Shown here piece after piece: positions 45,501-48,500 of a stretch of DNA of 64,000 nucleotides. Location: contig JAWQUS010000020.1 in the NCBI GenBank assembly GCA_036365455.1, forward strand, positions 5,181,001-5,245,000. Direction: 5' to 3'. The position numbers were made by a program, and so were the translations under genes. The stretch's first letter is position 1. Each line of letters starts with the position of its first letter. Below the pieces are notes generated by a model. The model did not search any database and had not been told where the DNA came from. It saw only the letters and a program-made list of their open reading frames with translations. Origin of the DNA: Macrosoma leucophasiata. Taxonomy: Eukaryota > Arthropoda > Insecta > Lepidoptera > Hedylidae.

Positions 45501-48500
45501 GTTCTAGATTATCACCTTTCAAGGACGGGACTTTGTAATTTGTTGGATAGAACCAAAACATTGCAGGCCTCTAAAATGAAAAATGTGCAGTGATACATAT
45601 CTTTAGTTTTATTTCGATATTTTTGTTCATTGGAACCATTTACCATTTCGGAAACTGTTTACTTTTATGACGTGGAATAATTCGATTTTTACTCGACTTT
45701 TCCAACTTATTCGGCAACTCAATCGGTGTAGTAGTTTTGGAGCAATCAGCGGTGATGGACGCACAGACAGACGGTCCGCTCTTCTCGAGCGCGTCCTGGC
45801 GGCGTGGCGAGTCTCGCGCCTCCAGACACACGGTGGGGCCTGCGAGGTGTGCGAGGTGTGTAGTGTGCAGTGTGTACATACCACCGCTTGCGCCAGGTCT
45901 TGAGCTTACCGCCCAGCTTGGCGAGGTGTCCGCTCTTCTCGAGCGCGTCCTGGCGGCGCTGCGAGTCGCGCACCTCCAGACACACGGTGGGCGGGGCCTG
46001 CGAGGTGTGCGAGGTGTGTAGCGTGTAGTGTGTACATACCACCGCTTGCGCCAGGTCTTGAGCTTGCCGCCCAGCTTGGCGAGGTGTCCGCTCTGCTCGA
46101 GCGCGTCCTGGCGGCGCTGCGAGTCGCGCACCTCCAGACACACGGTGGGCGGGGCCTGCGAGGTGTGCGAGGTGTGTAGCGTGTAGTGTGTACATAGCAC
46201 CGCTTGCGCCAGGTCTTGAGCTTACCGCCCAGCTTGGCGAGGTGTCCGCTCTTCTCGAGCGCGTCCTGGCGGCGCTGCGAGTCGCGCACCTCCAGACACA
46301 CGGTGGGCGGGGCCTGCGAGGTGTGCGAGGTGTGTAGTGTGCAGTGTGTACATACCACCGCTTGCGCCAGATCTTGAGCTTACCGCCCAGCTTGGCGAGG
46401 TGTCCGCTCTTCTCGAGCGCGTCCTGGCGGCGCTGCGAGTCGCGCACCTCCAGACACACGGTGGGCGGGGCCTGCGAGGTGTGCGAGGTGTGTAGCGTGT
46501 AGTGTGTACATACCACCGCTTGCGCCAGGTCTTGAGCTTGCCGCCCAGCTTGGCGAGGTGTCCGCTCTGCTCGAGCGCGTCCTGGCGGCGCTGCGAGTCG
46601 CGCACCTCCAGACACACGGTGGGCGGGGCCTGCGAGGTGTGCGAGGTGTGTAGCGTGTAGTGTGTACATAGCACCGCTTGCGCCAGGTCTTGAGCTTACC
46701 GCCCAGCTTGGCGAGGTGTCCGCTCTTCTCGAGCGCGTCCTGGCGGCGCTGCGAGTCGCGCACCTCCAGACACACGGTGGGCGGGGCCTGCGAGGTGTGC
46801 GAGGTGTGTAGTGTGCAGTGTGTACATACCACCGCTTGCGCCAGGTCTTGAGCTTACCGCCCAGCTTGGCGAGGTGTCCGCTCTTCTCGAGCGCGTCCTG
46901 GCGGCGCTGCGAGTCGCGCACCTCCAGACACACGGTGGGCGGGGCCTGCGAGGTGTGCGAGGTGTGTAGCGTGTAGTGTGTACATACCACCGCTTGCGCC
47001 AGGTCTTGAGCTTGCCGCCCAGCTTGGCGAGGTGTCCGCTCTGCTCGAGCGCGTCCTGGCGGCGCTGCGAGTCGCGCACCTCCAGACACACGGTGGGCGG
47101 GGCCTGCGAGGTGTGCGAGGTGTGTAGCGTGTAGTGTGTACATAGCACCGCTTGCGCCAGGTCTTGAGCTTACCGCCCAGCTTGGCGAGGTGTCCGCTCT
47201 TCTCGAGCGCGTCCTGGCGGCGCTGCGAGTCGCGCACCTCCAGACACACGGTGGGCGGGGCCTGCGAGGTGTGCGAGGTGTGTAGCGTGTAGTGTGTACA
47301 TACCACCGCTTGCGCCAGGTCTTGAGCTTGCCGCCCAGCTTGGCGAGGTGTCCGCTCTGCTCGAGCGCGTCCTGGCGGCGCTGCGAATCGCGCACCTCCA
47401 GACACACGGTGGGCGGGGCCTGCGAGGTGTGCGAGGTGTGTAGCGTGTAGTGTGTACATAGCACCGCTTGCGCCAGGTCTTGAGCTTACCGCCCAGCTTG
47501 GCGAGGTGTCCGCTCTTCTCGAGCGCGTCCTGGCGGCGCTGCGAGTCGCGCACCTCCAGACACACGGTGGGCGGGGCCTGCGAGGTGTGCGAGGTGTGTA
47601 GCGTGTAGTGTGTACATACCACCGCTTGCGCCAGGTCTTGAGCTTGCCGCCCAGCTTGGCGAGGTGTCCGCTCTGCTCGAGCGCGTCCTGGCGGCGCTGC
47701 GAGTCGCGCACCTCCAGACACACGGTGGGCGGGGCCTGCGAGGTGTGCGAGGTGTGTAGCGTGTAGTGTGTACATACCACCGCTTGCGCCAGATCTTGAG
47801 CTTACCGCCCAGCTTGGCGAGGTGTCCGCTCTTCTCGAGCGCGTCCTGGCGGCGCTGCGAGTCGCGCACCTCCAGACACACGGTGGGCGGGGCCTGCGAG
47901 GTGTGCGAGGTGTGTAGCGTGTAGTGTGTACATACCACCGCTTGCGCCAGGTCTTGAGCTTGCCGCCCAGCTTGGCGAGGTGTCCGCTCTGCTCGAGCGC
48001 GTCCGGCGGCGCTGCGAGTCGCGCACCTCCAGACACACGGTGGGCGGGGCCTGCGAGGTGTGCGAGGTGTGTAGCGTGTAGTGTGTACATACCACCGCTT
48101 GCGCCAGGTCTTGAGCTTGCCACCCAGCTTGGCGAGGTGTCCGCTCTTCTCGAGCGCGTCCTGGCGGCGTGGCGAGTCTCGCGCCTCTAGGGACACGGCG
48201 TCCGGTGGGATCGCGTAGTCGTCCGACATGCCCGATTCGAACGACGTGTCTGCAACGACACATAATATCGTCGAATATACCTACAATATAATCGTTCGTG
48301 TCTGCCAAGAGTGAGACATGTCTGGGAGGCCAATAATGTTTATAAATAAAAACGTATACTTAAATGCTTAGAGACGACATTTCACGTTCACGATTGAACT
48401 CAATATGTCGTTATGTCAATTTCATGTCAAAACAAAGGAGATGTTTAAATTTGGCCAATCACCTGTACATTCATCAGAAAAAGGAGAAAAATAATTTGAT

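Follow-up and report, generated by a model that had tools for sequence, protein, structure and literature searches.

We analyzed a 64-kb window, the whole stretch of DNA considered here (C20:5181001-5245000 in a 616-Mb assembly of 61 contigs); positions given without a contig are those of the window. Its minus strand carries a CG43867/Plekhh1 (MAX-1-type) gene, for which a partial model of 16 exons, running from 51582 to 20495 and encoding 823 amino acids, was built. Pfam analysis of the spliced model revealed PH in two stretches, followed by MyTH4, an RA-like domain, and FERM_M. When the model was compared with known proteins, 760 were found at E ≤ 0.001 (7996 scored), and among the best 120, which were examined, the top matches were lepidopteran, so that the host is taken to be a lepidopteran as well. 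The best match, from Euphydryas editha, is 88% identical across the whole query, and the best 22 are 84 to 88% identical, covering 99 to 100% of it. The PH-PH-MyTH4-FERM order together with the full-length homology identifies the gene as Plekhh1/CG43867 (MAX-1).

The exon of main interest here, e2 (48093 to 48249, minus strand; 157 nt, GC content of 0.67), has the donor GTG/GTATGT. As the first-pass annotation had proposed, it starts the first PH domain (PH1), which is matched by Pfam over residues 105 to 196. The second half of PH1 is encoded by exon e3 (45186 to 45393, minus strand; acceptor CACCAG/GTTTGT). Exon e2, which ends at 48093, is intact, joins in frame to 45393, and is in frame with the lepidopteran orthologs. 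The e2-e3 intron is 2699 nt long.

Several other features were noticed by eye in the window: an aldehyde/xanthine oxidase-like gene (449 to 8075, minus strand); a 1273–amino acid open reading frame of gag-pol retroelement type (31064 to 34885, plus strand), flanked by 123-bp repeats of 98% identity at 30255 to 30377 and 35148 to 35270; and a disrupted mariner-like transposase within the intron that precedes e2 (49319 to 50336). Across the 64-kb window, Rfam gave nothing at gathering thresholds, and ARAGORN, run with the bacterial code, found nothing.

The array in the e2-e3 intron

The e2-e3 intron contains a tandem array (45774 to 48092, minus strand). TRF reported a period of 158 bp with 15.4 copies and a 97% match at 45774 to 48198 (score 4549). 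Along the gene, native exon e2 comes first, followed by 14 full copies and a truncated copy 15. Each unit combines a 116-nt exon tail with 42 nt of intron starting at the donor; the exon part is 115 nt in copy 1, which has a 1-nt deletion, and 116 nt in the other full copies, and the intron part was measured in the 11 cases with a GT donor. Copy 15 (45774 to 45839, minus strand) comprises 66 nt of exon, with a copy-type junction followed by native-type sequence. The exon ends are followed by GTATGT in 11 of 15 cases and by CTATGT in the other 4. The tail of a GC-rich exon thus recurs within the intron together with its donor and 42 nt of intron sequence, and the intact exon stays upstream. The units stand head to tail, are of a length within the range of tens to hundreds of base pairs, and have a mean pairwise identity of 0.983, as in a minisatellite or variable number tandem repeat (VNTR). 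When the 158-mer was used as a query against the 616-Mb genome, 16 matches were found among the best candidates scored, all of them at C20:5226774-5229198.

The first-pass annotation had described the locus as a tandem array of a PH-domain exon at a 158-bp period, built of ~116 exon bases and 42 intron bases, headed by the authentic exon, and offering up to 11 intact donors. The TRF result and the copy-by-copy layout confirm the array, its unit, and the number of donors, and the authentic exon, at 48249 to 48093 with the acceptor GTTGCAG, is indeed the first in gene order. The extent of 45882 to 48249 was correct at its upper end only; the array extends further, to 45774, since the 14 full copies are followed by a 15th that breaks off after 66 nt of exon.

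Splicing, reading frame, and history of the copies

To score splice sites, we used matrices built from the gene’s own 16 native sites, with native sites scored leave-one-out. The acceptor of the copies (ACACCTCGCACACCTCGCAG/GC) scored −3.57, compared with −0.63 to 11.19 for the 16 native acceptors, a level that is reached by 59% of 1334 intronic AGs for the copy acceptor. The 42-nt spacer compares with 249 to 11,287 nt for the 15 introns of the gene model and lies under the minimal length usual for insect introns. The 116-nt exon part is not divisible by 3, and a premature stop is predicted when any single copy is included (14 of 14) and also when all 14 are included together. Replacement of the native donor by a copy donor leads to a premature stop in 13 of 14 cases, the exception being donor 47778, which leaves the frame open. 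The weak acceptor, the short spacer, and the stops do not support the earlier description of the units as “splice-ready.” Among the outcomes that had been left undecided, i.e., alternative isoforms, poison exons, or simple junk, the last comes closest, a poison exon being a less likely role that no sequence feature was found to favor.

Among the 16 native donors, that of e2 (GTGGTATGT) has the lowest score (3.99, leave-one-out). Therefore, there is room for competition from the 10 identical donors downstream, the products of which would be almost all nonproductive. An alternative is that the array is a regulatory donor cluster: the additional donors would recruit U1 or enter into competition with the native one, and the mis-spliced, frame-shifted products would be destroyed, so that poison donors or exons tune the output of the gene. 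The 11 of 15 identical donors that are intact, the weakness of the native donor, and the stops that follow from the use of 13 of 14 alternative donors or from the inclusion of any one of the 14 copies are consistent with such a role. However, the same GT-destroying change is found in 4 of 15 donors, copy 1 bears its deletion, and the copy acceptor is weak. A cluster of this kind would also be specific to the lineage, as the exon peptide is repeated in 0 of 32 lepidopteran proteins in a protein-level comparison that is blind to noncoding copies. We consider a regulatory role improbable. The four donors without GT and the deletion in copy 1 count in favor of a minisatellite.

The 14 full copies differ at 8 variable columns and fall into 7 haplotypes. 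Copies 1 to 7 are arranged as dimers and copies 8 to 14 as trimers; the identity between copies peaks at a lag of 3 (0.9885) and is lowest at a lag of 1 (0.9776). Four changes (alignment columns 42, 46, 54, and 55) are present in 14 of 14 copies but lacking in both e2 and copy 15, the two edges of the array. Such a higher-order arrangement, with a homogenized core and divergent edges, is that of a VNTR. The shared changes and the order in dimers and trimers indicate concerted evolution in an old minisatellite; the array would have been duplicated, mutated internally, and then re-amplified, with the edges lagging behind.

The native exon and all 14 copies read CAG (Q) at a position where, in an alignment of 32 lepidopteran proteins (one without a species name, several of them isoforms of one species, and two lacking the region), 29 of 30 read RRH and the remaining one lacks that residue. 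The array therefore arose, or underwent conversion, after a change in this lineage. In the same protein alignment, the 5′ breakpoint of the array lies within or beside a linker that is variable in length and composition among Lepidoptera.

Tandem repeats are error-prone in assembly, and the array could in principle be a misassembled or over-expanded repeat with a true copy number of one or few. Had an assembler simply repeated the native exon, shared and ordered variants like those observed would not arise: the changes common to 14 of 14 copies are missing from both e2 and copy 15, and variants recur in dimers and trimers. Arrays of like design that occur independently elsewhere (see below) argue in the same direction. 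We regard an artifact as highly unlikely, although the exact copy number may be off. Least credible of all is a coding array, in which the copies would serve as alternative or repeated PH1 exons and yield Dscam-like protein isoforms: in phase 0, 13 of 14 copies can still be read through to their end with a native-like sequence, but the native donor does not enter them in that phase, their length of 116 nt shifts the frame, their acceptor is very weak, and the exon peptide occurs once in 29 of 32 lepidopteran proteins, is absent in 3, and is repeated in none. Cassette or mutually exclusive exons, a coding repeat, and intron gain by tandem duplication were rejected, as the copies have a weak acceptor and a spacer of 42 nt, lose the frame on inclusion, and lie within an existing intron.

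Duplicated exons elsewhere in the gene and in the genome

Exon e14, which encodes part of FERM (22660 to 22831, minus strand; 172 nt, GC content of 0.73, donor CAG/GTGTGT), belongs to a second array of four 139-bp units (22213 to 22763, minus strand), each made of exon tail, the donor GTGTGT, and the start of the intron. The first copy is the tail of native e14 itself; the last one is diverged. Use of donors 2 and 3 is predicted to lead to stops, and the fourth donor (22243) leaves the frame open over 417 nt. This second array is absent from the first-pass annotation of the locus. At exon e8 (40249 to 40076), there is a decayed tandem duplication (40211 to 40889, minus strand; 76% identity over 333 bp, offset of 354). 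It comprises the end of an intron and the start of the exon, with the upstream copy at ~40602 to 40522 having an internal loss. This is an older duplicate and an acceptor-side event. The three duplicated exons (e2, e8, and e14) are among the five GC-richest of 16 (P = 0.018, post hoc).

To look for similar structures in the rest of the genome, we read 10-kb stretches at 25 round-number positions and two more next to kinase exons, which together with the window amount to 334 kb. Arrays with a period of at least 100 bp, at least three copies, and at least a 95% match, cutoffs that were chosen after the list was seen, numbered three, two of them in the window itself, and 3 of 3 were of the exon-tail-plus-donor type. 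The third (L010:8670-9324) derives from a 158-nt exon with a GC content of 0.69, whose peptide matches Helicase_C (E = 2.4 × 10−8) and which we take to be SNF2-like; its donors are spaced by 130, 130, 128, and 128 bp. Scaled up, one array in 250 kb of arbitrary sequence corresponds to ~2500 per genome (Poisson interval, 62 to 13,700). A further array, at C13:165705-166848 (minus strand), was placed by its position next to a LIM domain (C13:166900-167064, minus strand; E = 4.5 × 10−10), whose match stops 52 nt before the first donor is reached, as the model predicts. On the sequence evidence, then, four cases are placed at real exons: two in the CG43867/Plekhh1 gene, one in L010, and, by position, one at the LIM locus.

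GC-rich local duplicates were listed in many of the sampled stretches, and those in L010, L012, L028, L032, and L035 were inspected; the duplicates in L012, L028, L032, and L035 were read as dispersed repeats or low complexity and rejected as exon arrays. A protein kinase search revealed no tandem exon cluster by eye, but it reports merged matches and is unsuited to the question. At L034:2189-2217, an 8-bp repeat, CTCCACAC, directly follows what by eye is an exon end with a GTA donor and may represent a seed stage. Among the hits listed, a literature search at the level of titles and abstract openings found no account of donor-spanning exon arrays in Lepidoptera.

We also surveyed the genome with a pattern of three in-register copies of a donor motif, using CAGGTRAG at periods of 118 to 148, 87 to 117, and 149 to 179 bp and AAGGTRAG at 118 to 148 bp. 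Compared with the backward pattern, CAGGTRAG gave 130 versus 25, 117 versus 8, and 100 versus 1 matches, respectively, and AAGGTRAG gave 144 versus 6. The matches listed, which are complete only for CAGGTRAG at 149 to 179 bp, group into at least 61 candidate loci, nearly all of them candidates by pattern only. A permuted motif of the same composition, run at the CAGGTRAG spacings of 118 to 148 and 149 to 179 bp, gave 125 and 90 matches, near the donor totals, so that the tenfold donor enrichment suggested by the backward control is an overstatement. Since a few long arrays dominate the match totals, loci are a better unit than matches. Counted by locus over the two shared spacings and the same listed range, donor and permuted patterns gave 32 versus 21 (1.5-fold, P = 0.17), and arrays of four or more copies gave 27 versus 10 (2.7-fold, P = 0.008); without cutting the donor list at the end of the control, the counts were 33 versus 21 and 28 versus 10. 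Array C17:20425953 carries both motifs and was counted on both sides. Donors may thus be overrepresented in long tandem arrays.

The first 80 nt were read for 12 of the 18 loci found among the matches listed for CAGGTRAG at 118 to 148 bp: GC content was at least 0.69 in nine and 0.53 in one, and two were AT-rich. An acceptor-like motif gave 12 matches at five loci, compared with 13 matches for its control, the T-rich motif offering a weak contrast; one of these loci coincides with an AT-rich locus of the CAGGTRAG 118- to 148-bp list. Very long arrays were seen by pattern for the donor motif at C13:3935250-3940479 and C9:25172195-25176102 and for the permuted motif at C12:305144-310448, with periods within ~131 to 153 bp; of these, the first 80 nt of one were read.

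After merging, contig position could be evaluated, on contigs of known length, for 45 of 58 array loci and 74 of 111 kinase loci. Of the 45 donor-pattern loci, 24 lay within 2 Mb of a contig end, compared with 11 of 74 kinase loci and an expected 20% (rank test, P = 2 × 10−6). Permuted-motif loci were equally near the ends (9 of 16; P = 1.0 versus donor loci). The end bias therefore characterizes the tandem arrays of this genome in general and is not peculiar to donor arrays.

Origin of the array and comparison with known systems

Taken together, these results are best explained if the array is a donor-spanning, exon-derived minisatellite, with the first donor being spliced and the array leaving as intron; we put the probability of this reading at roughly 80%. 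Use of the first donor, deduced from sequence, is the most likely course of splicing. The array would have originated by local tandem duplication and grown by unequal exchange or replication slippage. Short repeats just after the donor, i.e., CACCTCGCACACCTCGCAG in the first array, CGGACAG units in the second, and CACCCC units in L010, may have contributed to initiating the duplications. The normal 157-nt exon, joined to 45393, would be defined by the authentic acceptor (48250) together with the first donor (48093), and the array, removed as part of a 2.7-kb intron, would hence be tolerated. We propose that donor-side arrays persist because the exon from authentic acceptor to first donor is left whole. 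The extra donors would be decoys that, if used, yield mostly nonproductive RNA. Against this reading count the weakness of the native donor, the 13 of 14 copies that stay open in phase 0, and the frames left open by donor 47778 in the first array and donor 22243 in the second, as well as the small number of confirmed cases genome-wide and the near-equal totals of the permuted motif. Overall, the structure is real and striking but probably without function.

The same process may have struck a few other GC-rich exon ends in the genome. A broader proposal is that the arrays form a recurrent genome-wide class, in which GC-rich exon tails with their donors amplify repeatedly into the downstream introns of unrelated genes; donor-side copies would be nearly invisible to selection, as the first donor is spliced, and acceptor-side copies would be less tolerated. 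The outcome would be a natural library of genes with many identical donors in succession, on which rules of donor choice could be tested and which could seed new exons. We hold this proposal only tentatively and think it somewhat more apt to fail than to stand. With two arrays and one older duplicate in one gene, plus the cases elsewhere, it is measurable by a simple genome survey.

Arrays at several exons would provide a natural test of how cells pick splice sites. If transcripts always use the first of many identical donors, this would be a natural demonstration of exon definition or first-come choice prevailing over donor number. Array loci may also reveal a route from coding exons to minisatellites, mislead gene annotation, and seed new exons or variable splicing.

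Mutually exclusive exons of the Dscam type have full acceptors, a kept frame, and diverged sequence. The 158-bp array resembles them in having tandem copies of one exon within a gene, but full acceptors, the kept frame, and divergence all fail in its copies. In Drosophila, intron sliding or gain via tandem duplication of exon sequence has been described (Lehmann et al. 2010, PMC2891723). The likeness lies in local tandem duplication around splice sites of insect genes; there, duplication creates a new intron position, whereas here, copies pile up inside an intron that is already present, with the exon structure apparently preserved. Two further reports concern a minisatellite that contains several splice donors (Nucleic Acids Res 1995;23:1854) and an intronic VNTR of ABCA7 that affects splicing (PMC5954066). 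The ABCA7 case is likewise an intronic tandem repeat of a coding gene with, according to its title, an effect on splicing, but its listing does not mention an exon tail or donor in the unit. The nearest precedent known to us, a precedent in kind, is the first of these two, the multi-donor minisatellite of human IFI6 (6-16), in which a unit of ~12 bp reportedly lies at an exon/intron junction and its donors are said to be used. Both cases have units with a donor at the exon/intron junction, 11 of 15 exon ends keeping GTATGT here, and in both, a minisatellite gives several splice donors to one transcript. They differ in that the units described here are of 158 bp with ~116 nt of exon, compared with the reported ~12 bp, that the frame is lost, that several exons are affected, and that the array is known from sequence, whereas the donors of IFI6 are reportedly in use.
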